Of a stretch of 64,000 nt of DNA, positions 7,379 to 19,697 are shown one piece after another (within the stretch, counting starts at the first letter, position 1; the number at the start of each line of letters is the position of its first letter). A model generated the notes under the pieces. The model did not search any database and was not told where the DNA came from. It saw only the letters and a list, made by a program, of their open reading frames with translations. The position numbers were made by a program, and so were the translations under genes. The stretch covers positions 1 through 64,000 of the forward strand of contig NZ_FNSI01000001.1 of the NCBI RefSeq assembly GCF_900104955.1. The letters are read 5' to 3'. This stretch comes from Beijerinckia sp. 28-YEA-48. Lineage in GTDB: Bacteria; Pseudomonadota; Alphaproteobacteria; Rhizobiales; Beijerinckiaceae.

Positions 7379-8158
7379 TCAATGACCAGCCGCCCGTGGC
7401 GGCAGCCAGCGGGCGATGGCGACCTCGACAAGTTCAACCACCGCATAAACGCCTAGGCCCAGGAACGAGAGCGCAAACAGGGCGGCGAAGGCCAGTGGCG
7501 TGTTGAGCTGTGACGTGGCGCTCAACAAGAGATAGCCAAGGCCGCTGCTTGAACCCATGAATTCGCCGATGACCGCGCCGATGACCGCCAAGGTGATCGC
7601 GACTTTGGCGCCGGTAAGCACGAACGGCAGCGCGGCGGGGAATTGCACCTTATAGAAGATCTGCCAGGGCGAGGCTTTCAGACTGTGCGCCAATTGGATG
7701 AGTTCACGCGGGGTCGAACGCAGACCGGCGGCGGTATCGATGATGATGGGAAAGAAGGCCACCAGCCAGACGATGGCGAGCTTTGATTCGAGGCCGGTGC
7801 CGAGCCAGACGAGAACGATCGGCGCCAGCGCCACCTTCGGCACCGATTGCAGCGCGACCAGCAACGGATAGAACATCAGGTTGAGCGGCCGCGAATTGGC
7901 GATCGCCACGGCCAGCGGCAGGCCGACAGCCATGGCGAGGGCGAAGCCGAGCACGGTTTCGACCAGCGTCACCCAGCCTTCGCGCATCAGCAGGCCAAAG
8001 CTATTGGCAAACGCGATGGCCACTTGATCAGGCGCCGGCAGAACGACTTCTGGAATCTTGAGCAGCCAGCAGGCCAGAGCCCAAACCGCGACAATAATGA
8101 CAACGCCGGCGAACGGATAGCCGATCCGGGAGAGCATAGTGTTGTCGAACATTCTCAA
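7379..8158 (-). CDS. ABC transporter permease, NitT/TauT type
   Basis: A 259-residue inner-membrane protein with about six membrane helices. The cytoplasmic EAA loop that docks on the ATPase is visible as LPFVLTGAKVAITLAVIGAV followed by GEFMGSSSGLGYLL around residues 175-205. Length and pattern match SsuC/TauC/NrtB-type permeases. Its start overlaps the ATPase gene stop by four bases (ATGA), so the two are translationally coupled; the binding protein is encoded divergently at 9098. The substrate is probably a small organic anion or aromatic, judged only from the neighbouring catabolic genes. Confidence 0.93.
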   Translation of the reverse strand: MRMFDNTMLSRIGYPFAGVVIIVAVWALACWLLKIPEVVLPAPDQVAIAFANSFGLLMREGWVTLVETVLGFALAMAVGLPLAVAIANSRPLNLMFYPLLVALQSVPKVALAPIVLVWLGTGLESKLAIVWLVAFFPIIIDTAAGLRSTPRELIQLAHSLKASPWQIFYKVQFPAALPFVLTGAKVAITLAVIGAVIGEFMGSSSGLGYLLLSATSQLNTPLAFAALFALSFLGLGVYAVVELVEVAIARWLPPRAAGH

Positions 8159-8931
8159 TGCTCCGAGCTTGACGCAGTCAACAAACCAAGGACTTCGCTG
8201 GCGCGGCGTTCAGCCTCAATGAATTCGGGCGTAAAGCGGCTGGCCTGATTGCGGGGCCCTGGAATATTGATCTGGAACTCGGCGCTGACGCGCGCCGGCC
8301 GGCGCGTGAACACCACCACCTTGTCGGAGAGGTAGATCGCTTCCGAAATCGAATGGGTGACGAACAGGACCGAGGCGCTTGTCTCGGCTTTGATCTTGAG
8401 CAAGAGGTCGTTCATGTCGAGGCGCGTGAACTCGTCGAGTGCGCCGAACGGTTCGTCCATGAGCAGCAGCTTCGGCTTGTGGATCAGCGCCCGGCACAGC
8501 GAGACACGTTGCTGCATGCCGCCTGAAAGCTCGTGCGGCCGTGAATTGGCGAAGGCGTGAAGTCCGGTGATCTGCAGAAGCTGCTCAGCCCGCGCCTTCG
8601 CCTGAGCATCGTTGCGCCCGAGGATTTCCATGGGAAAGAGGACGTTCTGCAGCACCGATCGCCAGGGCATCAGGCTGGGCTGCTGAAAGACAAAGCCGTA
8701 GTCGGGATAGGGGCCATCCACTTCGCGGCCGCCGACCTTCACTGAGCCGGATGTCTTCGAGGCGAGGCCGGCGACGATCGTTAGGAGTGTTGTCTTGCCG
8801 CAACCGCTTGGGCCGAGCAGCGCGACGAACTCACCTTCGTTGAAGCTCAGACTTGCCTCGTCGAGTGCGACAACTTCCTTTCCCTTGCTTCCGAAAACTT
8901 TGCGGACATTCGCGATCTCGACGAAGCCCAT
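8155..8931 (-). CDS. ABC transporter ATP-binding protein, NitT/TauT type
   Basis: The 258-residue ATPase starts at the ATG after GAAAGGAATGGA; the open frame extends further upstream without support. Walker A (GPSGCGKTT), the Q-loop (VFQQPSLMPW), signature (LSGGMQQR), Walker B (LLLMDEPFGALD) and the H-loop (VTHSISEA) are all present, so it should be active. It belongs to the SsuB/TauB/NrtD group and powers the permease encoded downstream. A TGAAATATC site lies about 80 bases before its start, in the shared divergent promoter with the binding-protein gene. Confidence 0.95.
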   Translation of the reverse strand: MGFVEIANVRKVFGSKGKEVVALDEASLSFNEGEFVALLGPSGCGKTTLLTIVAGLASKTSGSVKVGGREVDGPYPDYGFVFQQPSLMPWRSVLQNVLFPMEILGRNDAQAKARAEQLLQITGLHAFANSRPHELSGGMQQRVSLCRALIHKPKLLLMDEPFGALDEFTRLDMNDLLLKIKAETSASVLFVTHSISEAIYLSDKVVVFTRRPARVSAEFQINIPGPRNQASRFTPEFIEAERRASEVLGLLTASSSEH

Positions 8932-9011
8932 TCCATTCCTTTCTAGCAGCTCCACGAGAAATCGCGGACAGCACAGCGTTTTAGAACAAAGCATTCAGCT
9001 TGAATGTCTAC

Positions 9012-9020
9012 TGAAATATC
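9012..9020 (+). promoter_or_regulatory. TGAAATATC motif, putative cluster-1 operator (site c)
   Basis: The nine bases TGAAATATC lie in the divergent region between the ABC ATPase (start 8931) and the binding protein (start 9098), roughly 80 bases from each. The same nonamer or its complement occurs at 15984, 17131 and 19359, and a near copy at 18200, always next to a promoter of this cluster. Confidence 0.5.
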
Positions 9021-9097
9021 TTATGATGTCTCTGTGGTCAATGGCAGCCGGCAAGCCGCGCGGCACAAGCCCGAAAGAGCAACCAGAGGAGATCGCG

Positions 9098-10108
9098 ATG
9101 TTGAAAAAACTTGCCGGTGCAATCACGCTTGCGGTGCTGGCCGCGGCGCCAACCGGTGCGGTGGCAGCTGATACCAACGTCAAATTCATTCTCGATTTCA
9201 TCAGCCTCGGTCGCCACGCGCCTTGGTATGTTGCGCTGGAGAAGGGCTATTTCAAAGAAGAAGGCCTGAACGTCGAAATCATGCCTTCGAAAGGCACTGC
9301 CGATGCCATTCGCGGCGTCGTCACCGGCATGGCGCAGATGGGTTTCATCGATGTGCCGAGCCTTGTGGCTTCGGGGAAAGCCGGTAGCGACGTCAAGATC
9401 GTCGCCAGCAGCTATGTGGAGGCGCCCTACTGCGTCTATTCCCTTAATCCCGGCGCCAATGTCACCAAGCCGGCGCAGCTCGAAGGCTTGAAGTTCGGCT
9501 CCAGCTCGGCCTCCTTCGTGCCGCAGATCTGGCGCGCCTTCATGAAGATGAACGGCCTGGACGGTTCGAAGCTTGAAATCGTCAATATCGATGCGGCTGC
9601 CCGCGTGCCCATGCTCGCGGCCGGACAGGTTGGTGGTGTCGATCAATTTCTGATGGCGGCGCCCGCCATTCGCCGCGCCGCGCCGGGCAAAGAGGCGGTG
9701 TGCCTGTTCGCCGCTGATTATGGCCTGGATCTCTATTCCAATTCGATCGGCGTGAAGAAGAGCTTCCTCGATCAAAATCCGGAAGCGGTGCGCGGCTTCG
9801 TGCGCGCGGCGCTGCGCGGCTGGCAATATACGCTGGCCAATCGTGATGAAGCGACCGCTATCATGGTCAAGAACGTGCCGGCTCTCGATCGCGGCATCGT
9901 GCGCGAAGAAATCGATCTGCTCGAGCGCATCGGTGTCAATGCCGACGTGAAAGCCAATGGCTTCGGCAATATCGTCCCGGCCAAGATGGCCAAGACATTC
10001 GAGTTCATCAATTCGAACGTCGAGGTTGCCGGCGGCAAGCTCGAAGCGGACCAGACCTTTGTGCCGGGCTTCCTGCCGAAAACGCCGATCCTGCCGGCAC
10101 AGAAATAA
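9098..10108 (+). CDS. ABC transporter substrate-binding protein, NMT1/TauA-like
   Basis: The chosen ATG has AGAGGA seven bases upstream; the open frame extends far 5' but overlaps the divergent gene. The 336-residue product has a signal peptide (LAGAITLAVLAAAPTGAVAA, cleavage near residue 24) and the NMT1/THI5-like fold: WYVALEKGYFKEEGLNVEI near residue 45, then ADAIRGVVTGMAQMGFID. It is periplasmic and delivers the substrate to the permease/ATPase encoded on the opposite strand. A strong hairpin terminator follows 26 bases after the stop. Confidence 0.93.
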   Translation: MLKKLAGAITLAVLAAAPTGAVAADTNVKFILDFISLGRHAPWYVALEKGYFKEEGLNVEIMPSKGTADAIRGVVTGMAQMGFIDVPSLVASGKAGSDVKIVASSYVEAPYCVYSLNPGANVTKPAQLEGLKFGSSSASFVPQIWRAFMKMNGLDGSKLEIVNIDAAARVPMLAAGQVGGVDQFLMAAPAIRRAAPGKEAVCLFAADYGLDLYSNSIGVKKSFLDQNPEAVRGFVRAALRGWQYTLANRDEATAIMVKNVPALDRGIVREEIDLLERIGVNADVKANGFGNIVPAKMAKTFEFINSNVEVAGGKLEADQTFVPGFLPKTPILPAQK

Positions 10109-10134
10109 TTCAAAGACAGCTGACGGCAAAAAAG

Positions 10135-10168
10135 AATCCCCGGAGCTTGCTCCGGGGATTTTCATTTT
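10135..10168 (+). terminator. Rho-independent terminator
   Basis: AATCCCCGGAGC and GCTCCGGGGATT form a perfect 12-bp stem with a TT loop, followed by TTCATTTT and preceded by an A-run. The A-run suggests it may work in both directions, although the gene to the right ends 160 bases away. Confidence 0.85.
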
Positions 10169-10180
10169 AGCAAGGTACCG

Positions 10181-10319
10181 TCCGTCATTGCGAGAAGCGT
10201 AGCGACGAAGCAATCCAGGGGCGTGGTATAACGTTGTAAAATGCCTCTGGTGCAGGTCGATTTGCGTCTATGGCTCTATCCTTGGCTCCTGGATTGCTTC
10301 GCCGCGCTCGCAATAACGG
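10181..10319. repeat. Intergenic long inverted repeat (REP/MITE-like)
   Basis: The left arm (10181-10219, containing GTCATTGCGAGAAGCG and GACGAAGCAATCCAGG) and the right arm (10286-10319, containing CCTGGATTGCTTCGCC and CTCGCAATAACGG) are imperfect reverse complements around a ~65-base spacer. Arms reading CATTGCGAG...AAGCAATCC are a familiar intergenic repeat in Bradyrhizobium and relatives. It lies between the terminator and the end of the convergent operon. Confidence 0.6.
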
Positions 10320-10329
10320 CGGAAAGCCC

Positions 10330-10662
10330 TCAGGCTTTCGGCACAACCTGCTTAAACTCGATCAGCACGTTTGAATAAATGCCCTTGCTGGCATTCTCCA
10401 ATTCATGGGGAATGCCGGGCTCCCGCCACATCACTTCGCCGGGCGTTTCCTTGGTTTCGCGGACGCGGCCATCGGAAAAGCGCATGATGTTTTCGCCAGG
10501 CGTCAGCGGCACGATCAGATAATGCATGTCGTGCTTGTGCCACGGCTGAATGCCGCCGGGATCGAGCTTGAGCCGCCAGACGCGGATCGTCTCGTTCTCG
10601 AAAATAACCTCGTCGCCAATCGCACCTAGAATGGTGCCTTCGGGCATGTGGACTTCGCTCAT
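10330..10662 (-). CDS. Small cupin-domain protein
   Basis: This 110-residue single-domain cupin carries HKHDMHYLIVP, with two or three metal-binding histidines in motif 1, and GEVMWREPGIPHELEN in motif 2. It is last in a seven-gene run and its start overlaps the amidohydrolase stop by one base (TAATG). Single cupins of this kind act as metal-dependent isomerases, dioxygenases or sugar/acid binders; nothing in the sequence selects among these. Operon position suggests a step or accessory role in degrading the cluster's substrate. Confidence 0.85.
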   Translation of the reverse strand: MSEVHMPEGTILGAIGDEVIFENETIRVWRLKLDPGGIQPWHKHDMHYLIVPLTPGENIMRFSDGRVRETKETPGEVMWREPGIPHELENASKGIYSNVLIEFKQVVPKA

Positions 10663-11654
10663 TATTTATCCCCTTTGCAGGTGAAGCGTGCCAGCAGGCG
10701 CGCCGGGTTTTCGCTCAGATATCTTTTGCGGCGCTCCGCCGAGAAGTCCGCCAGCTGTTGTTGCGGCTCGATCAGTCCCATTGGGAACGGCCAGTCGGAG
10801 CCGAAGACGACATTCTCGGACCCGAAGGTGTGATCGGCAAGTTCGGCCGCGGCCTCGCTGTGGCAGATGCAATCGACATGGATGCGTTTCATCAACGTCG
10901 AGGGCAGGGCGCGTTTGGTGTCGATATCGGGGCGCGCCGTGGCATGGCCGCGATCCCAGCGGCCGGCGACCGTCGGTAACAGGCCGCCGCCATGGGCAAA
11001 GCAGGTCGTGATATGGGGGTGGCGTTCGAGCACGCCCGAAAAGATCAGATGCGCGAGGGCGACCGTGGTTTCGTAGGGGTTGCCGAGGAGATTGGTGAGA
11101 TAGAAGGATTGCAGCCGTCCGTCGGCGCATTCACCGGGGTGAAAGAACACGAAGGCGCCGGCCGCATCGAGCGCCTGCCAGAGCGGTGCGAAGGCGGCAT
11201 CGCCCAAGGTGCGATCGTCGCCGGTTCCCGTCGGCATGGCGAACAGGACATGGCCGCGACCGATCCACTCTCCGGCAATCTCGGCGGCCACCGCCGGGTC
11301 TTCGATCGGCAGATGCATCAACGCTGTGAATTTGCCATCAGACGCCGCGGCGATGTCGCGCAAGCCGTCGTTGACGTAGTGCGCCCAGGCGCGTGCCTGC
11401 GCGCCGCGCAGCTGCTGCCGGTAGAGCGGCGGGGGCGCCGAGATCCAGGCATGCGCGACGCCATTTTTATCCATCCATTGCAGCAAGGCGTCCGGCTGAA
11501 ACAACGGCTTCATGCCGACCACATGGCCGTCGATGATCATCACGCCCTTGCCGGCGTCCCAGGAGACGTCGTCAATCCGCGCCAGCCGCTCGGGCACCAC
11601 CGGCGCCAGATGCGCGTGGACGTCGAGGGGGATCTGCGCTTGCGGTTGCGTCAT
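10662..11654 (-). CDS. Amidohydrolase/decarboxylase of the ACMSD-like superfamily
   Basis: A 330-residue TIM-barrel metal enzyme of the amidohydrolase_2 (PF04909) type. Visible motifs are HAHLAP near the N-terminus (metal HxH), FHPGE around residue 170, CFAHGGG with its metal histidine around residue 213, and FGSDWPF with the catalytic aspartate around residue 283. Relatives include ACMS decarboxylase, gamma-resorcylate decarboxylase and carboxyvanillate decarboxylase, so decarboxylation or hydrolysis of an aromatic or ring-cleavage product is plausible. It is coupled by one-base overlaps to both neighbouring genes. Confidence 0.85.
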   Translation of the reverse strand: MTQPQAQIPLDVHAHLAPVVPERLARIDDVSWDAGKGVMIIDGHVVGMKPLFQPDALLQWMDKNGVAHAWISAPPPLYRQQLRGAQARAWAHYVNDGLRDIAAASDGKFTALMHLPIEDPAVAAEIAGEWIGRGHVLFAMPTGTGDDRTLGDAAFAPLWQALDAAGAFVFFHPGECADGRLQSFYLTNLLGNPYETTVALAHLIFSGVLERHPHITTCFAHGGGLLPTVAGRWDRGHATARPDIDTKRALPSTLMKRIHVDCICHSEAAAELADHTFGSENVVFGSDWPFPMGLIEPQQQLADFSAERRKRYLSENPARLLARFTCKGDK

Positions 11655-13210
11655 TAAGCCTGTCCTCTGATCCGCTGGTAGATATCGGCGATCAATCGCG
11701 ATCCGATCGGCAGAATGGCGGCGACGTGATCGTCTGGCCGCAGCAGAACCACCGTGTCGTCAGCACAACCCAGCCGGGTGCGCAGTCGGTTGCCGATGTC
11801 GAGCAAAGCCTGGTCGCGCAGGCCGGAATCGAGAGGCGCATCCCAGCGCGAGACCACGAAGCTCTTCAACCCCGGCAGATCGTCCGCCGGCACGGCCGGA
11901 TGACGGCGTACATCGGTGAAATAGAGCGCGACAAAGCTGTCGTCGCAGAGATCATGCAGATGGATGCGGCGGCCCTGGCCGTCGAACAGCGGCATGTCGG
12001 GCACGCGATCGCCGACACGAATGGCCTCGCGTTCGGTCTTGACGATCGACCAGAGGCCCGAGCCATCGACATCCAGGCGCACGCCCAGCATGGAGCGCGT
12101 CATCGCATTGGCCCAGTCGGAGCCGGACATGGCGCGCGCGCCGTCTTTCTCGCCGCCCATCAGTTTGCGCGCCGCTTCGGCCATTTCGCCGGAGCCACGG
12201 GCCGCCAGCGGCCGTTGTTCGCGTTCATAGCCGTCGAGCAGACTGTCATTGGCCCAGCCACGCAAGACCCAGGCCAGGCGCCAGGGCAGATTGATCGCGT
12301 CGAGCACACCGGTGTTCAATCCAAGCGCCCACATCGGCGTGATCAGATGCGCCGCATCGCCGGCCAGGAAGACGCGATCCGCACGCCATTTCGAGGCGAT
12401 GCGGTGATGGACCCGATAGGTGACGGTGTTGATGACTTCGAGCGCGCTGACCTCGCCGATGAAATGGCGGACCTTGGTTTCAAGTTCGGCCGGTGTCGCC
12501 TCGTCGGCGCCCGGCGCCAGCGGAAACAAGAAGCGCCAGCAATGGGGCTGGCGCACCAGGATCATCCACTCGTTCGGATCGGCGAAATAGGCGAGATAAG
12601 GATAGTCGCGCGGGTTGGAGGTATCGAGATCGACCTTGATGTCGACGAGCATGTAGCGCACGTCGAGCGATTGGCCTTCGACCTCGATGCCGAGCTGACC
12701 ACGCACCGTGCTGCGGCCGCCGTCGCAGGCGATAAGATAGCTACCTTCGACCTCGCGCACGCCCTCCGGTGTTTCAAAGCGCGCGGTGACGCCTTCGGCT
12801 TCTTGCGTGAACGAGACCAGTTTGTGGCGCAGATTGACAACGCCGGGCGGTAGATCCGATAGGTTCTGCGCGAGGATCGGCTCGAGATGATGCTGCGGCA
12901 TATTGATGACGAAAGGAAAGCGTGTTTCCTCGACGAGGTTCTCGGTCATCACGGAGGTGCGGCGGGTGTTGGTGGCGCGTTCGATCTCGCCGATCTCATC
13001 AAGCCGTAGCGCTTTCGATAGCACGGCCTCGTCGACGCCATAGCGGCGGAACGCTTCGATGGTCCGCGTCAGGATCGTGCCGGCCTTGGTGTCGCTGGAA
13101 AATTCGCGATCTTCCTCGAACAGGCGAAAGTCGATGCCGTAGAATTTTAGCGCAAGGGCCGTCATCAGCCCCACCGGGCCGGCCCCCACCACAAGAACCG
13201 GTTTCGTCAA
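11654..13210 (-). CDS. FAD-dependent aromatic hydroxylase (PheA/TfdB/MhpA-like)
   Basis: The frame opens at a GTG at 13234, overlapping the SDR gene, but a TTG at 13210 has TTAGGAG seven bases upstream and gives the canonical N-terminus TKPVLVVGAGPVGLM. The ~518-residue enzyme has the Rossmann FAD motif there, the DG motif (YLIACDGGRSTVRGQLGIE, ~160) and the GD motif (VFLAGDAAHLITP, ~285), although the usual GGQGMNTG after it reads WALGLNTG. A C-terminal thioredoxin-like domain follows from ~residue 390. These enzymes use NAD(P)H and O2 to hydroxylate phenolic rings; the substrate is unknown. It is the cluster's most diagnostic catabolic enzyme. Confidence 0.88.
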   Translation of the reverse strand: MTKPVLVVGAGPVGLMTALALKFYGIDFRLFEEDREFSSDTKAGTILTRTIEAFRRYGVDEAVLSKALRLDEIGEIERATNTRRTSVMTENLVEETRFPFVINMPQHHLEPILAQNLSDLPPGVVNLRHKLVSFTQEAEGVTARFETPEGVREVEGSYLIACDGGRSTVRGQLGIEVEGQSLDVRYMLVDIKVDLDTSNPRDYPYLAYFADPNEWMILVRQPHCWRFLFPLAPGADEATPAELETKVRHFIGEVSALEVINTVTYRVHHRIASKWRADRVFLAGDAAHLITPMWALGLNTGVLDAINLPWRLAWVLRGWANDSLLDGYEREQRPLAARGSGEMAEAARKLMGGEKDGARAMSGSDWANAMTRSMLGVRLDVDGSGLWSIVKTEREAIRVGDRVPDMPLFDGQGRRIHLHDLCDDSFVALYFTDVRRHPAVPADDLPGLKSFVVSRWDAPLDSGLRDQALLDIGNRLRTRLGCADDTVVLLRPDDHVAAILPIGSRLIADIYQRIRGQA

Positions 13211-13220
13211 CTGCGGACTC

Positions 13221-13961
13221 CTAATCCTCGTCACGCGGGTAAGCCATATCGCGGCTGACGAGCGAGGCCGTCATGGTTGCCGCGTCAGACAGGAGAAACA
13301 TCAGCGGGCCGATGACATCTTGCGCGCCGCCGACGCCGGTCGAGGCTTTCCAGCTGGCATCATCGGCGCCAGCATTGGCGGCGCGATATTGCGGTGTGTC
13401 GATGACGCCGGGCGCGATCAGATTGACGCGGACCCGATGCTCGGCGACTTCCTTGGCGGCGCTCTTCGCCCAGGCGATGAGCGCACCCTTGGTGGCCGCA
13501 TAGGCGGAGGCCTTCGGCCAGCCTTGATGCGCCAGTCCGGACGAGAAAGCGACGATGGAGCCTTTGCGGCGCGCGATCATGGACGTGATCACAGCCTGAT
13601 AGCACCACATCACGCCATTGAGATTGATGGCGATCACGCGCTGCCATTCGGCTGGGTCCATCTCATGGATGTTGGTGCGCGGCTGGGTCGCTGCGGCGCA
13701 GACCAGGCTGTCAACAGGCCCGATGGTTTGCGCGATCTCATTGAAGCACGCCATGACCGCTGTTCGATCGCTGACATCGAGACGACGGGTTGCGATGGAC
13801 GGGGCCTCGGCGCGCAGGCTCGCCAACGCGGCCTCGTTGACGTCGCAGACCACGACGCGGGCGCCGGCCTGCAGGCAAGCCAGCGCCAGAGCGCGTCCGA
13901 TGCCGCTGGCGCCGCCGGTGATGGCGATGACATCGCCGGTGGCATCGAAGCTCGCCTTCAT
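13221..13961 (-). CDS. SDR family oxidoreductase
   Basis: A 246-residue classical short-chain dehydrogenase. It shows the nucleotide motif TGGASGIG at residues ~15-22, an aspartate after the second strand (VVVCDVNE) indicating NAD(H) preference, an LVCAAA variant of NNAG, and the active-site SSGLAHQGWPKASAYAATKG containing Ser, Tyr and Lys. It probably oxidises or reduces an alcohol or ketone intermediate. The gene stops only 11 bases before the TTG start proposed for the hydroxylase, in the same operon. Confidence 0.92.
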   Translation of the reverse strand: MKASFDATGDVIAITGGASGIGRALALACLQAGARVVVCDVNEAALASLRAEAPSIATRRLDVSDRTAVMACFNEIAQTIGPVDSLVCAAATQPRTNIHEMDPAEWQRVIAINLNGVMWCYQAVITSMIARRKGSIVAFSSGLAHQGWPKASAYAATKGALIAWAKSAAKEVAEHRVRVNLIAPGVIDTPQYRAANAGADDASWKASTGVGGAQDVIGPLMFLLSDAATMTASLVSRDMAYPRDED

Positions 13962-14056
13962 ACGACCTCGCTCATGGAAGAAGTGTCCGTGGTCTCGTGC
14001 AGGTTGGCCACGACACGGTTGCCCGAAAGATGGGCCGTGGCAAGACGCATGATCGA

Positions 14057-14455
14057 TCAGCCGTTCGGCAGAACCGCAATCGCGCTGATCTCGATCAGAT
14101 AGTCGGGCGACACCATCTTGGCGACTTCAACCATGGTCGAGGCCGGCACGGGCGCCTTGAAATATTCCTGGCGGACTTTGTGAATGGCGGCGAAATGCTC
14201 GATATTGCGCACGTAAACGTCGACGCGCACGACATCGTCCAGCGAACCGCCAGCCGCTTCAGCGGCAGCCTTGAGGTTTTCGCAGACCTGACGCGTCTGG
14301 GCGTCGATATCGCCGATCCCGGCAATCGTGCCATCGGCGCGGCGCGCCGTCATGCCTGAGATGAAGACCAGCTTGCCCTTCGCTTCGATCGTGGTGGCCT
14401 GAGAGAAATGACCGTTCGGCTTGGCAAGCTTGTCGCTGGTGATCTGCTGCTTCAT
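14057..14455 (-). CDS. RidA family (YjgF/UK114) deaminase-like protein
   Basis: The 132-residue protein matches the RidA fold: KLVFISGMTAR near residue 28, a conserved ADGTIAGIGDIDAQTRQVCE helix start, DDVVRVDVYVRN with the active-site arginine, and the C-terminal MVEVAKMVSPDYLIEISAIA with the conserved glutamate. Family members hydrolyse enamine/imine intermediates, and pathway-specific versions act on aminoacrylate or aminomuconate derivatives. Its presence suggests that a nitrogen-containing intermediate may occur in this pathway. It is separated from the Ldh gene upstream by 11 bases. Confidence 0.92.
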   Translation of the reverse strand: MKQQITSDKLAKPNGHFSQATTIEAKGKLVFISGMTARRADGTIAGIGDIDAQTRQVCENLKAAAEAAGGSLDDVVRVDVYVRNIEHFAAIHKVRQEYFKAPVPASTMVEVAKMVSPDYLIEISAIAVLPNG

Positions 14456-14466
14456 GTCTTTGACTT

Positions 14467-15534
14467 TCAGTTGGAGAGAAGAGCGCTGACGTCGACGCCC
14501 AGGCCGCGCCCGGTTTCGATGAGGCTCGATAGCGCGGCTGCGGAGACGCGGCAGCGGCCAGCGGCCCCGGTGCGCGCGGCGAAGGCCAGCTCGCCTGGGG
14601 CATAGATGCGCTCGACGCCGGGGGCGCGGCGCGAGGCGGCGACGCGGGCGAGTTCGGCTTCGGTCCGCGTGGCAAACTTGTCGGCGTCAACGAAATGACC
14701 GACATCGATCGCCAGGAACAGGCTGGCGCTGCCATAGGGCTTGGCCGGCGGCCCATAGAGCGGCGCCACTTCAGCGCCGATGCCGCCGTCGGATAGGCCG
14801 CCGCAGAGGAGATCGGCGAGAAACGCCAGGCCAAAACCTTTGGGGCCGGCGGCGGGCAGCAACATGCCTTCGATCGCTGCCTTCGGATCCGTCGTCACAG
14901 CGCCGCTCTTATCGGCCGCCCATCCCTCGGGGATCGGTTGGCCGGCAGCCGCCGCGTTGCGAATTTTGCCCATCGCCACGGCGCTCAACGCCATGTCGAT
15001 TTCAGGCGAGAACGGCGCCTTGCTCGGGGCGACAATCGCCAAGGGATTGTTGCCGGTGAGCGGTTCGGCGCCGCCGGGTGCTGGCATCAAGGGCCGCGTG
15101 TTGGCCATCACCATGCCGACGCAGCCTTGATCGGCCATCATCCGCGCGTAGCGGCCAGCGGAGCCAAAATGAAAGGCATTGCGCACGGTGACAGCAGCAA
15201 GGCCGTAGCGCTTGGCCCGCTCGACAGCGAGCGAGACCGCCTGACGGGCGGTCAACTGGCCGAGCACATTGTGGGCATCGATCACAACCGCTGCTTCGCG
15301 ATCGGAGACGACTTCGCCGGCCGAGGCTGTGGATACGGAGCCGGCGCGCAGGCGATCCACGTACATCGGCACGAGCATCACGCCATGGGAGCCAACGCCC
15401 TCGACATCGGCAGCGACAAGATCTTCAGCCACGATGGCAGCGTCGGCTGGCGACACGCCCGTGGCGACGAAGATTTTGGCGACTGCTTCAGCCAGGGCCG
15501 CAGCGGAAATTCCGCCGTCACCGCCCTTCGACAT
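14467..15534 (-). CDS. Ldh family (malate/L-lactate/ureidoglycolate-type) dehydrogenase
   Basis: The 355-residue protein has the distinctive fold of the Ldh_2 family: VEGVGSHGVMLVPMYVDRL near residue 55, AFHFGSAGRYARMMADQGCV (~140), TGNNPLAIVAPSK and the loop GFGLAFLADLLCGGLSDG (~255) near the NAD(P) site. Relatives oxidise 2-hydroxyacids such as malate, sulfolactate or ureidoglycolate in the cytoplasm. It shares one base with the upstream cupin gene stop, so the two are co-translated. The substrate is likely a hydroxyacid intermediate of cluster 1 (inference). Confidence 0.92.
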   Translation of the reverse strand: MSKGGDGGISAAALAEAVAKIFVATGVSPADAAIVAEDLVAADVEGVGSHGVMLVPMYVDRLRAGSVSTASAGEVVSDREAAVVIDAHNVLGQLTARQAVSLAVERAKRYGLAAVTVRNAFHFGSAGRYARMMADQGCVGMVMANTRPLMPAPGGAEPLTGNNPLAIVAPSKAPFSPEIDMALSAVAMGKIRNAAAAGQPIPEGWAADKSGAVTTDPKAAIEGMLLPAAGPKGFGLAFLADLLCGGLSDGGIGAEVAPLYGPPAKPYGSASLFLAIDVGHFVDADKFATRTEAELARVAASRRAPGVERIYAPGELAFAARTGAAGRCRVSAAALSSLIETGRGLGVDVSALLSN

Positions 15535-15950
15535 CAGCGCGCGTCCTCGTCATTGGTGTACCAGGACGGACGCTCGGGATAGTGCGGGCCATCGTACATT
15601 TCGACGACGATCGTATCTTCGTGCGCCAAGGTCGGGCCGTGAACATTGCCCTTGGGGTTGCAGTAGAACGAACCAGCACGCAGCGTCACGCCGGTGCTGG
15701 TGTATTCGTAGTGCCCCTCAAGGCAGAACATGAACTGGTTCGACGCATGCAGATGCGGCGTCGGAATGCTTGAGCCTTTGTCGAAACGGATCAGGGCGAT
15801 GGTCGCGCCGGTGGCCTCGTCGCGCCAGAGCATCTTTTCATGCACGCCGGCGAGGGACTTCGCGCGCCAGGGCAGGTCGGCCGACTGGATCAGGATTTCG
15901 CTTAAGGAGGGCATGCCCGGCGGGGTGGTCGGAGGCGTTTGGCTCGTCAT
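15534..15950 (-). CDS. Cupin-domain protein, first gene of the cluster-1 operon
   Basis: The open frame begins at a TTG at 15962, but the ATG at 15950 preceded by GGATGATGA is preferred, giving 138 residues. Motif 1 reads PHLHASNQFMFCLEGHYEY, with two histidines, and motif 2 is GSFYCNPKGNVHGP with a third. It is the promoter-proximal gene of the seven-gene operon. Possible roles are ring-cleaving dioxygenase, isomerase or decarboxylase. Because no other ring-cleavage enzyme is visible in the cluster, a dioxygenase role is an attractive but unproved idea. Confidence 0.85.
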   Translation of the reverse strand: MTSQTPPTTPPGMPSLSEILIQSADLPWRAKSLAGVHEKMLWRDEATGATIALIRFDKGSSIPTPHLHASNQFMFCLEGHYEYTSTGVTLRAGSFYCNPKGNVHGPTLAHEDTIVVEMYDGPHYPERPSWYTNDEDAR

Positions 15951-15960
15951 TTCATCATCC

Positions 15961-15992
15961 AAATATCACAAAGTAGATTAGATGATATTTCA
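15961..15992. promoter_or_regulatory. Putative cluster-1 operator (site a) with inverted repeat
   Basis: AAATATCA at 15961-15968 and TGATATTT at 15983-15990 form an 8-bp inverted repeat just upstream of the first cupin gene. The right arm extends into GATATTTCA (15984-15992), the complement of the TGAAATATC seen at the other cluster promoters. A position close to the start codon suits a repressor site. Confidence 0.55.
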
Positions 15993-16166
15993 GGTGATCT
16001 AAAAAGCAAGCGCTTTGTCGGCGATGCCGATAATCCGGTGGATGGCGGCCGTGCGCCGGCGCTCAATCGCCTTGATACGGCGGCAGGATTCACGCTGCGG
16101 CCGCGCGTAGCAATCGTCCGTCTCTGTCGAGCGGCGTGGCAGTCCGTCGCTGATGCGGGGCAGTCG

Positions 16167-17024
16167 TTATTGGAGGGGGATTGGCCGAAAGGCATGCGGC
16201 GACATCCGCTGCAGCTTCTGCAATCGTGTGCGCAGCGCCGCGATGTGATCGAGCATGCGCTGTGCCGCCAATTCGCCGTCACCGGCGATGATGGCGGCGG
16301 CGATTTCCGCGTGCTGCTTGTTGGTCAGCGGCACATCGATTGTCTGCCACAGGTTGAGATACCAGAAGCGGGTCGAACGCTCGTGCAGCAAGCGGGCGAA
16401 ATCGCTCATGATCGCATTGCCCGACATCTGCGCGATCTCGCGGTGGAACCAGCGATCGTTGGCGGTGAAGGCAGCGATATCCGGCGGGTCTTCGTCCACC
16501 GTCGCCGTGGCGATTTCCATGACGCGTGACAGCTGATCGGCGGTGATCTCGCCAGCCGCGACCCGACGCGCGGCGGAGCGCGCCAGTTCAGGTTCAACCG
16601 TCACGCGGGAATCAAGGATTTTCATGATTTCGGCCAAGCTGTCAGGCTGGACGATGATGCCCTTGCGCGGCAGCACGTCGACCAAACCTTCCATCTGTAA
16701 GCGCTGCAACGCTTGATGAACCGGCGTGCGCCCCAGTTTAAGCTGCGCGCAGATCGCCGCTTCATTCAAATATTGGCCGGGCAGAAAGTGCAGATTGATG
16801 ATCCGCTCCTTAATGCTTTCATAGGCCTGCTGGACCAGCGATTTGCCTTCATCGACCTTCCGCTCCTTTGACGAGGCGGCCTGTTTTTTCGGCACAGAGG
16901 CTGACTTTTTCGGCTTGGGAGCCGCGGGTGACTTTGAGGCCGCGTTCTTGGACGTGGCGTTCTTGGACGTGGCGTTGGGCGTCGCGTTTTTGGGGGCTGC
17001 GTTGGATTTGGGGGTCGCGGCCAT
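16167..17024 (-). CDS. GntR family regulator (FCD type) with basic low-complexity N-terminal tail
   Basis: The ATG at 17024 follows GAGGAGCTGGCTG and gives 285 residues. The first ~57 residues are Lys/Ala/Ser/Asn-rich with a repeating NATSK unit (a 15-bp DNA repeat at 16944-16973), resembling histone H1-type tails. Next come the winged helix-turn-helix (AYESIKERIINLHFLPGQYL, LGRTPVHQALQRLQMEGLV) and the all-helical FCD effector domain with metal-site histidines (NDRWFHREIAQ, KQHAEIAAAI). It probably represses cluster 1, sits between its operon and its transport genes, and has a cluster motif 107 bases upstream, suggesting autoregulation. Confidence 0.9.
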   Translation of the reverse strand: MAATPKSNAAPKNATPNATSKNATSKNAASKSPAAPKPKKSASVPKKQAASSKERKVDEGKSLVQQAYESIKERIINLHFLPGQYLNEAAICAQLKLGRTPVHQALQRLQMEGLVDVLPRKGIIVQPDSLAEIMKILDSRVTVEPELARSAARRVAAGEITADQLSRVMEIATATVDEDPPDIAAFTANDRWFHREIAQMSGNAIMSDFARLLHERSTRFWYLNLWQTIDVPLTNKQHAEIAAAIIAGDGELAAQRMLDHIAALRTRLQKLQRMSPHAFRPIPLQ

Positions 17025-17130
17025 CAGCCAGCTCCTCATCAGCGACGGGAATCGTCCGTCGGAAATAGCCCCGATGACTATTCCTTACGCAACATGAGCG
17101 CAAGACTTAGTCATCACCAAAAATTACTGA

Positions 17131-17139
17131 TGAAATATC
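17131..17139 (+). promoter_or_regulatory. TGAAATATC motif, putative cluster-1 operator (site b)
   Basis: TGAAATATC occurs in the 147-base gap before the GntR gene, within the context TACTGATGAAATATCTGACG. The TCTGAC extension is shared with the near-copy at 18200. It fits autoregulation of the regulator gene. Confidence 0.5.
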
Positions 17140-17171
17140 TGACGAAACCGCTGCCTTATCAAAGTGCACCA

Positions 17172-18140
17172 TCAGTCGATACTGATCTTGGCGCGTTGGA
17201 TGACCTCGCGCCACGTGCGCGTCTCCGCATCAATCCGTTGCGCCATCGCGGTTGAACCATCGCCCAAGGCCGTAATGCCGACTTGCGCGAGCTTGTCGCG
17301 CAGCTCCGGATCGGCGAGCGCTTGCACGACGGCGCGTTCGATCTCCGCGCGCAGCGGTTCTGGTGTCGCCTTGGCGACGAGGAGGGCGAACCAGGCGCTG
17401 GTCTCGAAGCCCGCAACGCCAGCTTCGATCATGGTCGGGACCGCCGGCAGCGGACCAGCCCGTTGCGCGGTTGTCACCGCCAGCGCGCGCAACTGGCCGG
17501 CGCGGACCTGCTCGAGCACGGACGGCAGATTGTCGAACATCACTTGCACATGGCCGCCGATGAGATCGGCGACGGCGGGCGCGCTGCCCTTATAGGGAAC
17601 ATGGACCATGTCGGCCCCGGTCATCTGGCGGAACATTTCGCCGTTGAGATGGCCGTTGGAGCCGTTGCCTTGAGAGGCATAGTTGAGGCTGCCGGGCTTG
17701 GCTTTCGTCAAGGCAACCAGTTCGGCGATGGTCGCGGCCGGCACCGAAGGATGGACGACGACGACATTGGGCACCGAGCCGGTGCGCGTTATCGGTGCGA
17801 GATCGCGGCCGACATCATAACCAAGCGAACGGTAAAGCAGAGGATTGAGCGTCAGGGCGCTCGAAGCGACGGCAAGCAAGGTGTGACCGTCGGCCGGGCC
17901 GCGCGCCACGGCCAGGACGCCGACGCTGCCGTTGGCGCCGGGGCGGTTCTCGACAATGACTGATTGCTTCCAGATGTCGCCGAGCTTTTGCGCGAGAAGG
18001 CGGGAGATGATGTCGCTGGTTCCGCCGGCCTGGTAGGGCGAGATGATGGTGACGGGGCGCGATGGGAAATTCTGCGCGTGTGCCGTTGCAACACCGAGAA
18101 AGCCGAGAGTAGCGAGCGCGAGCCCGCGAAGCGCCCGCAT
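17172..18140 (-). CDS. Bug family (TctC-like) periplasmic solute-binding protein
   Basis: The chosen ATG (18140) gives 322 residues with a clean signal peptide (RALRGLALATLGFLGVATAHA, written here from position 2 in part; cleavage before QNFPSRP). Bug hallmarks follow: the PSRPVTIISPYQAGGTSDI loop, then VENRPGANGSVG and YKGSAPAVADLIGGHVQ. Bug proteins bind carboxylates such as tricarboxylates or aromatic acids for tripartite (TctAB) transporters. No TctA/TctB genes are in the window, so it either recruits a distant membrane pair or acts in sensing. A second Bug gene lies immediately upstream. Confidence 0.92.
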   Translation of the reverse strand: MRALRGLALATLGFLGVATAHAQNFPSRPVTIISPYQAGGTSDIISRLLAQKLGDIWKQSVIVENRPGANGSVGVLAVARGPADGHTLLAVASSALTLNPLLYRSLGYDVGRDLAPITRTGSVPNVVVVHPSVPAATIAELVALTKAKPGSLNYASQGNGSNGHLNGEMFRQMTGADMVHVPYKGSAPAVADLIGGHVQVMFDNLPSVLEQVRAGQLRALAVTTAQRAGPLPAVPTMIEAGVAGFETSAWFALLVAKATPEPLRAEIERAVVQALADPELRDKLAQVGITALGDGSTAMAQRIDAETRTWREVIQRAKISID

Positions 18141-18198
18141 CGAGCTCCTGTATTGTCCCCAATGCGACGACTTTATCATGAGTGTGCTCCGGTTTGTC

Positions 18199-18209
18199 AG
18201 ATATTCAAC
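18199..18209 (-). promoter_or_regulatory. Near-copy of the cluster-1 motif (site d)
   Basis: On the minus strand the bases read GTTGAATATCTGAC, matching site b (TGAAATATCTGAC) except for one missing A. It lies about 55 bases before the first Bug gene start (18140). This is a weaker match than the other four sites. Confidence 0.35.
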
Positions 18210-18249
18210 ACGGCGATAAAATGGGCAGAAGATGGCTCGGATGCTGCGC

Positions 18250-19239
18250 TTAAGGCGCTTCGATGTGGGCGCGCTCGATGGCTGATTTCCAGCGCGCGCC
18301 GTCCTGTGCCAGGAAGGTCGCGAAATCGTCGCGCGTTCTCAAATCAGTCGTGACGCTGAGATCGGCCAGGCGTTGCACCCGTGCGGCTTCCATGAATCCG
18401 CTGCGCAGCGCTTGGGTCAGGATTGTTGCTGTCTCTGCCGGCAGCCCCGCTGGTCCGAGCAGGCCGTACCAGGTTCCAACGCCGATATTGCGTATGCCGG
18501 CCTCTTCGAGTGTCGGAATATCGGGCGCAGAAGATAGGCGCGCTGGCGCGGTGACAGCGAGGGCGCGCAAGGTTCCGCCTGTCACTTGCGGCAGAAGCTG
18601 AGGCACGTTCTCAAACAGAAAGTCGACGTGTCCACTGATGAGGTCGTTCACGGCTGGCGCGCCGCCACGATAGGGCACATGCGTGGCCTCGAAGTCGGCT
18701 TCAAGGCGGAAGAGTTCAGCTAAAAGATGCACCGATGTGCCGATGCCCGGCGATGCAAAGTTGAGTTTCTTCGGCTGCGCCTGACCGGCGGCAATGAGGT
18801 CGGCGACGGTTCGGGCCGCGTTCTTGGGATTGACGACAAGAAAGCTCGGCACTTCCGTCACCAGAGCCAGGGGCGTGAAGTCGGCTTCCGTGCGATACTG
18901 TGCGTTCTTTGTCAGATGAGGGCCGATGGTCAGCGGGCCGCCGGCGGTGAACAGCAGCGTGTAGCCATCCGGGGTTGCTTTGGCGACGGTGTTACAGCCG
19001 ATCATGCCGGAAGCGCCCGGCTTGTTCTCGACGACAAAGCTCTTCCCGAGTTTTTCGCTGAGCGTCTCGGCGGTGATGCGCGCCAGAATGTCGGCGGTGC
19101 CGCCGGCCGCATAGGGCACGATCAGGGTGACGGTGCGGGCAGGATAGTCTGCGGCGCGCGCGGGGATGCTCGCCAATCCGGCGAGTGCAAGCGAAACGGC
19201 GGTCCGCCGGGTGATGCCGTTGCGTGAAACTGGTCTCAC
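18250..19239 (-). CDS. Bug family periplasmic solute-binding protein, Tat-like signal
   Basis: The longest frame starts with a TTG at 19320, but a GTG at 19239 preceded by GAGAGGCTTTC yields a normal 329-residue export precursor. The signal contains ITRRTAVSLALAGLASIPAR, a plausible twin-arginine motif. The mature protein shows the Bug signatures YPARTVTLIVPYAAGGTADI, VENKPGASGMIG and PYRGGAPAVNDLISGHVDF. It probably binds a carboxylated substrate related to that of its neighbour. As with the neighbour, no tripartite membrane subunits are encoded nearby. A TGAAATATC site lies 120 bases upstream. Confidence 0.92.
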   Translation of the reverse strand: MRPVSRNGITRRTAVSLALAGLASIPARAADYPARTVTLIVPYAAGGTADILARITAETLSEKLGKSFVVENKPGASGMIGCNTVAKATPDGYTLLFTAGGPLTIGPHLTKNAQYRTEADFTPLALVTEVPSFLVVNPKNAARTVADLIAAGQAQPKKLNFASPGIGTSVHLLAELFRLEADFEATHVPYRGGAPAVNDLISGHVDFLFENVPQLLPQVTGGTLRALAVTAPARLSSAPDIPTLEEAGIRNIGVGTWYGLLGPAGLPAETATILTQALRSGFMEAARVQRLADLSVTTDLRTRDDFATFLAQDGARWKSAIERAHIEAP

Positions 19240-19358
19240 GAAAGCCTCTCGATGAGCGCGCACGACTTCGGCTGCCGACAAGCCGTTCAGCCTGCCAAGC
19301 CACTGTCCCGGAGCGCTCAAAGCCTGAGCCCGGAATAGCTACCTCTGTCCTCGCACGT

Positions 19359-19367
19359 GATATTTCA
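19359..19367 (-). promoter_or_regulatory. TGAAATATC motif, putative cluster-1 operator (site e)
   Basis: The plus strand reads GTGATATTTCATAA, whose complement contains TGAAATATCAC. It is upstream of the second Bug gene and forms the right-hand limit of cluster 1. The adjoining 19368-19697 has only spurious short frames and no structure I recognise. Confidence 0.5.
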
Positions 19368-19697
19368 TAAAAAATCTTACATACTGCCGCAGCGAAGTAA
19401 ATGCCCTGAACGCTGGCTTCGCAGATTTTCTGCGCCGGCAAATTCCGGAGCAGGTTCCGCTGTTTGCGCGGGCAGGATGCTTTGATTGGTGCAGGCGGGT
19501 GGCCGATTCCGACCTACGCGACCCAAGCGCTTCTCAAGTGGAAGGTGACGCCGATGTCGGTGCGTCGACCGTTGGCGGCTTCGCCAAGCCGTGACATGCG
19601 GGGCAGATGTCGGAAGGGGCGGCCGGCGCAGCGGCAGGCCCTATCTGCGTATGGCAATAGAAAGCTGTCGCGACGATGGCACGCGATAGGTGGGATA

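Follow-up and report, generated by a model that had tools for sequence, protein, structure and literature searches.

Which protein reads the short word that recurs in the promoter regions of a catabolic gene cluster of Beijerinckia sp. 28-YEA-48, and does this word tie the cluster into a single regulon? The cluster lies in positions 1 to 64,000 of contig NZ_FNSI01000001.1, a 64-kb stretch to which we refer as the window in the following. It comprises ATP-binding cassette (ABC) transporter genes, an enzyme operon, two Bug genes for periplasmic binding proteins, and gntR, the gene of a GntR-type regulator with an FCD domain. A preliminary description of the window had noted a nonamer, TGAAATATC, before all of these units and had proposed that the GntR protein controls them as one regulon. 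Our analysis supports this proposal on two grounds: the sites are conserved at the corresponding promoters of related genomes, and their core tracks the subfamily of the regulator both inside and outside such clusters. We conclude that the word very probably serves as the binding site of the GntR-type regulator encoded in the cluster itself.

Occurrence of the core in the window and the genome

The exact nonamer occurs four times in the window, at 9012 (+), 15984 (-), 17131 (+) and 19359 (-), which confirms the four positions given previously. All of these copies, termed sites A, B, C and E (Table 1), fall within promoter regions of the cluster, and no further exact copy is found elsewhere in the 64 kb; the expected number is 0.27, and four copies were reached in one of 100 shuffles. 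The near copy reported at 18200 is likewise present, with one base deleted, as TTGAATATC on the minus strand. It had been taken to mark a fifth promoter, that of Bug1, but we dropped it as an operator and count only four sites: it is a weak match, and L031, the only relative in which this gap was compared, does not conserve it. With its start 70 bp beyond Bug2, Bug1 may belong to the same transcript, read from the promoter at 19359.

The nonamer as such is not confined to the cluster, as the two contigs of the genome (6,427,626 bases) hold 47 copies, 18 forward and 29 reverse, compared with 16 for its reversed-letter control; hence, what stands out is the density, the flanks and the conservation of the cluster sites. 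In these respects the cluster is clearly exceptional. The Poisson chance of four copies in 10,356 bases is 1.3e-6, and any four of 47 random points fell inside 10.4 kb in 546 of 200,000 simulations. According to a codon-based gene-finder made for this analysis, all four cluster sites are intergenic, as are 12 of the remaining 43 copies, the other 31 being coding (hypergeometric p = 0.010). The enrichment at promoters that the preliminary description proposed to test holds for the cluster, without being exclusive to it: none of the 12 further intergenic copies lies in such a cluster, and all have flank scores below those of the cluster sites, two of them only narrowly.

Three of these intergenic copies (L016, L009 and L079, at about 902367, 336600 and 3371885 of contig C1) have neighbours whose N-termini look like those of a Bug-type gene, a flavin-reductase-like gene and a binding-protein/LysR pair. 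They are possible distant targets of the window regulator.

Conservation in related genomes

A scan of named genomes yielded five good relatives of the GntR protein with their genomic context (L031 to L035, 57-86% identity), to which searches of genome and plasmid collections added G621 (L096), G873 (L146), G878 (L143), G960 (L144) and an Agrobacterium tumefaciens plasmid (L131). Some loci represent the same genome (L040 and L031, L041 and L096, L112 and L146), and L038 is the window's own locus. The motif search over orthologous clusters that had been suggested previously finds the site at the same promoters in these genomes: the exact core stands upstream of the cupin7-Ldh2 operon, the position of site B, in all ten relatives that have this operon. 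They include Devosia, Paracoccus, Bradyrhizobium and the Agrobacterium plasmid, and the available sequence of L035 stops inside Ldh2. The core is kept at the operon even in L143 and L144, where gntR is more than 4.5 kb away.

The other sites recur in the same manner. Site A is exact in the equivalent spacer between ABC and binding-protein genes of L031, L032, L034 and L146, and site C upstream of gntR in L031, L032, L033, L131 and L146, with the gntR and operon sites of L131 sharing one divergent spacer. At the place of site E, an exact core precedes Bug2 in L031 and a TctC-type gene in L035. This last locus, from Paracoccus, has rearranged genes, including a sulfatase, a flavin adenine dinucleotide (FAD) oxidase and a TctC-type gene, and carries three exact promoter-region sites, that of cupin7 among them. 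In the promoters that were aligned (eight of the ten relatives for B, five for C, three for A and two for E), the core is identical, while the 40-bp flanks average 25-73% identity to the window; at site B, the two flanks are 53% and 49% identical and all nine core bases are unchanged.

A weight matrix was built from 17 flank sequences of eight relatives, with the window's genome, L031 of the same genus, and L144 excluded. It places the four cluster sites first to fourth among the 47 genome copies (scores 20.0, 19.2, 2.3 and 2.1, the next being 2.0); as it consists of orthologous promoters, it tests conservation and is not an independent model of binding. As predicted operators, A and B are strongly supported by their flanks, and C and E mainly by the core and its direct conservation.

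More distant relatives gave less. The GntR loci L036 and L037 (24-28% identity) have no exact core, nor does a Gemmobacter plasmid locus (L132, GntR 40% identical) in its 16.6 kb. Cupin7 operons lacking gntR proved too few to serve as a test; the match in L152 lies in a fused-looking gene inside an operon, and L153 has no site. A repeat search in L143 to L145 found nothing of use.

The core follows a GntR subfamily

Among the 37 FCD loci of the Beijerinckia genome, a six-frame scan detected the recognition helix GRTPVHQA in only two, the window's and a paralogue at C1:292606. These are also the only two with an intergenic core within about 1.5 kb; at the paralogue, it has a DUF2848-gntR operon on one side and a divergent amidase gene on the other. 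This association extends to other genomes. When all loci returned by GntR searches at E up to 1e-35 or 1e-40 are considered, the window's own included, TGAAATATC or TGAAATTTCA is found in non-coding DNA at 20 of 29. The same procedure, applied to the 35 other FCD loci of the Beijerinckia genome, found it at none, and at two of these a copy lies inside a gene. As the 29 loci are related to each other, they do not amount to 29 independent trials.

The paralogues L119, L122 and L125 carry a full palindrome, CTTGTGAAATTTCACAAG. The extended palindrome TTGTGAAATWTCACAA occurs at 10 distinct places in 9 of 397 genomes of the order (reversed control: 0); seven of these places adjoin a gntR of the subfamily. 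A search of 385 genomes of the class returned only the own genome at its threshold. A strict tie to the histidine at the sixth residue of GRTPVHQA was weakened, as L125 (GRTPIRQA) and L126 (GRTPVNKA) also carry TGTGAAATTTCACA.

Two observations concern the surroundings of these palindromes. Those of the form TTGTGAAATATCACAA that have no subfamily gntR nearby are found in L138 and L142 (both G726) and in L140 (G992); the G726 pair stands near transporter-looking genes and looks as if it were controlled from elsewhere. Furthermore, a DUF2848 gene according to Pfam (L095, 10304-10987), or a similar-looking gene in L133 to L137, L139 and L141, directly precedes the paralogous gntR, and its product may take part in the same pathway. 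A literature search for DUF2848 together with GntR found no paper.

The regulator and its predicted operators

The window regulator has an N-terminal GntR winged helix and a C-terminal FCD domain, both above the Pfam cut-off, and the best fold matches of its predicted model (pLDDT 78.5, pTM 0.68) are GntR/FCD proteins. Its helix reads GRTPVHQA in 110 of 121 sequences (the window protein and the best 120 of 471 homologues at E up to 1e-20).

We aligned 26 sites from 11 loci, chosen for holding the exact nonamer. They read TGA-AATA-TCW, where the base that follows the nonamer is A in 15 and T in 11; conservation is also seen in columns -5 to -3 and, to a lesser degree, in columns 12 to 14. We rejected a description of these sites as a 20-bp palindrome in which the outer boxes pair, since mirror pairing is at most slightly above column expectation. 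The preliminary description had taken the word for an operator of the FCD type. This stands in that the core tracks the subfamily, but not as to the usual form: instead of TKGT-N2/3-ACMA, the FadR-subfamily consensus (PMC4494728), the sites read TGA-W4-TCW, without GT/AC boxes at 2-3 bp. As the subfamily often but not always follows that consensus, with NanR and BioR named as exceptions, the assignment to the FCD proteins by the protein itself stands. The predicted window operators belong with these exceptions, having TGA and TCW around four A/T bases.

It appears somewhat better than an even bet that the window regulator belongs to a widespread subgroup with a recognition helix of the type GRTPV(H/N)QA, that this subgroup reads a code of its own, TGA-W4-TCA (TTGTGA-AATW-TCACAA in the paralogues) instead of GT-N2/3-AC, and that helix and operator changed together. 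If so, the operators of hundreds of unstudied homologues would become predictable from eight residues, and the rule linking GRTPVHQA to TGA-W4-TCA could be used to predict the operators of many GntR proteins, the 471 homologues mentioned above.

A like site precedes gntR and the linked operons, the arrangement of a local autoregulated regulon. In the mechanism that we propose, a GntR dimer would bind a two-fold operator with the core TGA-AATA-TCW and a looser conserved surround, roughly TCW-NN before and WGA after it. From site A it would control the ABC and substrate-binding genes, from B the enzyme operon, from C gntR itself and from E the Bug genes, repressing them by keeping RNA polymerase off the promoters until a pathway compound binds to the FCD domain and makes the regulator let go. 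A promoter scan found a promoter-like TTGAAT-16-TATGAT at 9000-9027, with site A inside its spacer, and a match on the minus strand whose second, -10-like hexamer overlaps site C; at B and E, it found no match. As two of the predicted operators overlap promoter-like elements, occlusion is the most likely mode of repression. What the analysis itself shows are the sites, their conservation and their tie to this group of regulators; dimer binding, repression and release by a ligand are inferred. Very probably, the GntR protein is a local, autoregulated repressor that binds four operators as a dimer and is released by a ligand, and the unit is one regulon. A previously uncharacterized catabolic cluster would thereby become a defined regulon with four named predicted operators.

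Alternative explanations

Several points weigh against this interpretation. The outer boxes of the operator lack a clear excess of mirror pairing, and the flank scores of C and E (2.1 and 2.3) barely exceed that of the best non-cluster site (2.0). Many of the 29 subfamily loci form a single paralogous group from one genus, and one genome supplied all 35 controls. No exact core lies within reach at nine of the 29 (L113 to L118, L124, L127 and L130); L113 and L114 have a site more than 4.5 kb away at the cupin7 operon, leaving seven without exact core, and L115, L117 and L127 have one-mismatch forms. As to the extended palindrome TTGTGAAATWTCACAA, it is not found in the window's own genome, three of its ten copies have no subfamily gntR within 1.5 kb (L138, L140 and L142), and five of the seven places adjoining gntR are in genomes already represented among the 29 loci, only two (G914 and G740) being new. 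Finally, four more distant cupin7 homologues (48-61% identity) all lack an exact core upstream: L154 carries TGAAATTTCA instead and L155 a form with one mismatch, while L152 and L153 carry neither.

Of the alternatives, the one that fares best leaves the regulator in place and concerns only the sign of its action: the GntR protein might bind the sites but activate some promoters rather than only repress. FCD proteins of both signs are known, and CitO is an activator (PMC4746285). Still, we regard this as unlikely, given that site A falls between the two promoter-like hexamers and site C covers the second hexamer, both positions typical of repression. This argument does not reach B and E, where the scan gave no promoter match.

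It is considerably less probable that another regulator, encoded elsewhere, for example, uses the word as its operator and also controls these genes. The 12 other intergenic copies, some of them near genes that look like LysR by their N-termini, would fit this idea, as would the three extended palindromes without GntR in their vicinity; yet the core follows the GntR subfamily across neighbourhoods as unlike as DUF2848-gntR operons, amidase and binding-protein genes, and does not occur in non-coding DNA next to any of the other 35 FCD genes of the Beijerinckia genome.

Slightly more improbable still is that the word belongs to the core promoter, as the A+T-rich -10 region of genes that use a common sigma factor. 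The overlap with a -10-like hexamer at site C speaks for it, as does perhaps, by eye, a similar overlap at B, though the scan found no promoter match there. However, the spacing from the core to a CTTG element is 5 bp shorter for promoter A than for promoter B, which is what an operator would show but a fixed promoter element would not. Only 16 of the 47 genome copies are intergenic, and the word forms a symmetric palindrome in many paralogous clusters, mostly in a divergent spacer. Lastly, a chance cluster of a common A+T-rich nonamer, found 47 times in the genome and mostly in coding DNA, has a negligible probability, as it is already contradicted by exact conservation at the orthologous promoters of ten relatives.

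Genes of the cluster

The enzyme operon consists of seven genes, running from cupin7 (15962) down to a small cupin (10330), and the cluster as a whole probably serves to break down an aromatic or nitrogen-containing ring compound (Table 1). Between its ridA and short-chain dehydrogenase/reductase (SDR) genes lies a remnant of a gene of the fumarylacetoacetate-hydrolase family, which is full-length (about 300 amino acids) at the same place in L031 (12888-13790) and L131 (8885-9790). Either the gene has suffered an internal deletion here or the assembly is at fault; the pathway of the cluster may be without a hydrolase.

Table 1. Predicted operators and genes of the cluster; genes were assigned from Pfam and NCBIfam matches.
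Feature	Coordinates	Strand	Position or role	Details
ABC transporter permease	7379..8158	-		Pfam BPD_transp_1
ABC transporter ATPase	8155..8994	-		Pfam ABC_tran
Site A	9012..9020	+	between ABC ATPase gene (-) and NMT1-type binding gene (+)	fuller operator ~9007-9026
NMT1-type ABC substrate-binding protein	9098..10108	+		Pfam NMT1 3e-43; 94% identical in L031
Cupin_2 protein	10330..10662	-	last gene of enzyme operon	Pfam Cupin_2, below curated cut-off
Amidohydrolase	10662..11654	-	enzyme operon	Pfam Amidohydro_2; nearest solved structures ACMS decarboxylases, PDB 4ign 1.8e-31
FAD-dependent monooxygenase, aromatic hydroxylase type	11654..13234	-	enzyme operon	Pfam FAD_binding_3; nearest solved structures PnpA (PDB, 3.3e-39) and other hydroxylases
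SDR oxidoreductase	13221..13961	-	enzyme operon	Pfam adh_short
Fumarylacetoacetate-hydrolase-family gene remnant	13958..14050	-		30 codons
RidA-family protein	14057..14455	-	enzyme operon	Pfam Ribonuc_L-PSP
Ldh_2-type dehydrogenase	14467..15534	-	enzyme operon	Pfam Ldh_2
ChrR-type cupin (cupin7)	15534..15962	-	first gene of enzyme operon	Pfam Cupin_7
Site B	15984..15992	-	upstream of enzyme operon, first gene cupin7	fuller operator ~15978-15997
FCD-type GntR regulator	16167..17039	-		Pfam GntR 6e-16 (58.3 bits), FCD 7.9e-21 (75.2 bits); helix GRTPVHQA
Site C	17131..17139	+	upstream of gntR (putative autoregulation)	fuller operator ~17126-17145
Bug1, TctC-type periplasmic binding protein	17172..18179	-		Pfam TctC
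Near copy D	18200..18207	-	upstream of Bug1	one base missing; not counted as operator
Bug2, TctC-type periplasmic binding protein	18250..19320	-		Pfam TctC
Site E	19359..19367	-	upstream of Bug2 (TctC-type) gene	fuller operator ~19353-19372

Comparison with known systems

Our literature searches, which covered only part of the matching literature, found no description of TGAAATATC or TGTGAAATTTCACA as a GntR operator. The core word does arise in engineered promoter variants of a nickel operon, the operator of which is different (PMC12724321). The sites resemble the FadR-subfamily consensus in being A+T-rich palindromes, and in that subfamily, too, the genes on either side of a divergent spacer are often served by one site (PMC4494728). 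AlkR, a VanR-type FCD repressor of Pseudomonas, has its palindrome over the -10 element of a monooxygenase promoter; its operator ATTGTCAGACAAT has the usual GT-centred form and fits the consensus, unlike the window sites (PMC12042122).

A wider spacing is seen in DhdR, an autoregulated GntR-family repressor of Achromobacter, the structure of which (9jpj) is among the fold matches of the window regulator. In its footprinted operator GTTATCAGATAAC, GT and AC are far apart, similar to the wide GT-N8-AC of the paralogous sites TTGTGAAATTTCACAA; it differs from the window system in having another sequence, a 13-bp repeat with a one-base centre and, in that paper, one promoter (PMC8651671).

The structural relatives of the regulator include a Brucella melitensis protein (7u5q), which comes first by sequence profile, and Ralstonia 3ihu; their TM-scores (0.62 and 0.61 of the query) exceed that of Atu1419. 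The latter takes second place by sequence profile and first place by Foldseek E-value (2.3e-10), with a TM-score that reaches only 0.49 of the query. Atu1419 of Agrobacterium fabrum (PDB 6z74/6za3) is a VanR-type FCD repressor that acts locally on a hydroxycinnamic-acid region through several short palindromes, some over the -10 element and one between the hexamers; a guanine of its operator is read by Arg45, the conserved arginine of the recognition helix in Atu1419 and FadR, and the phosphates are contacted by Ser44, Thr46 and Arg49 (PMC7797058). In a profile alignment, Arg45 corresponds to R104 of the window regulator, which is invariant in 20 aligned members, while Ser44, Arg49 and Glu50 are replaced by G103, H108 and Q109. 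In the Atu1419 operator ATGTATACAT, the G and its mirror C are four bases apart (PMC7797058), whereas they are six apart in the predicted window operator. Such a wider and differently read operator, if bound as we propose, bears on how FCD dimers space their recognition helices.

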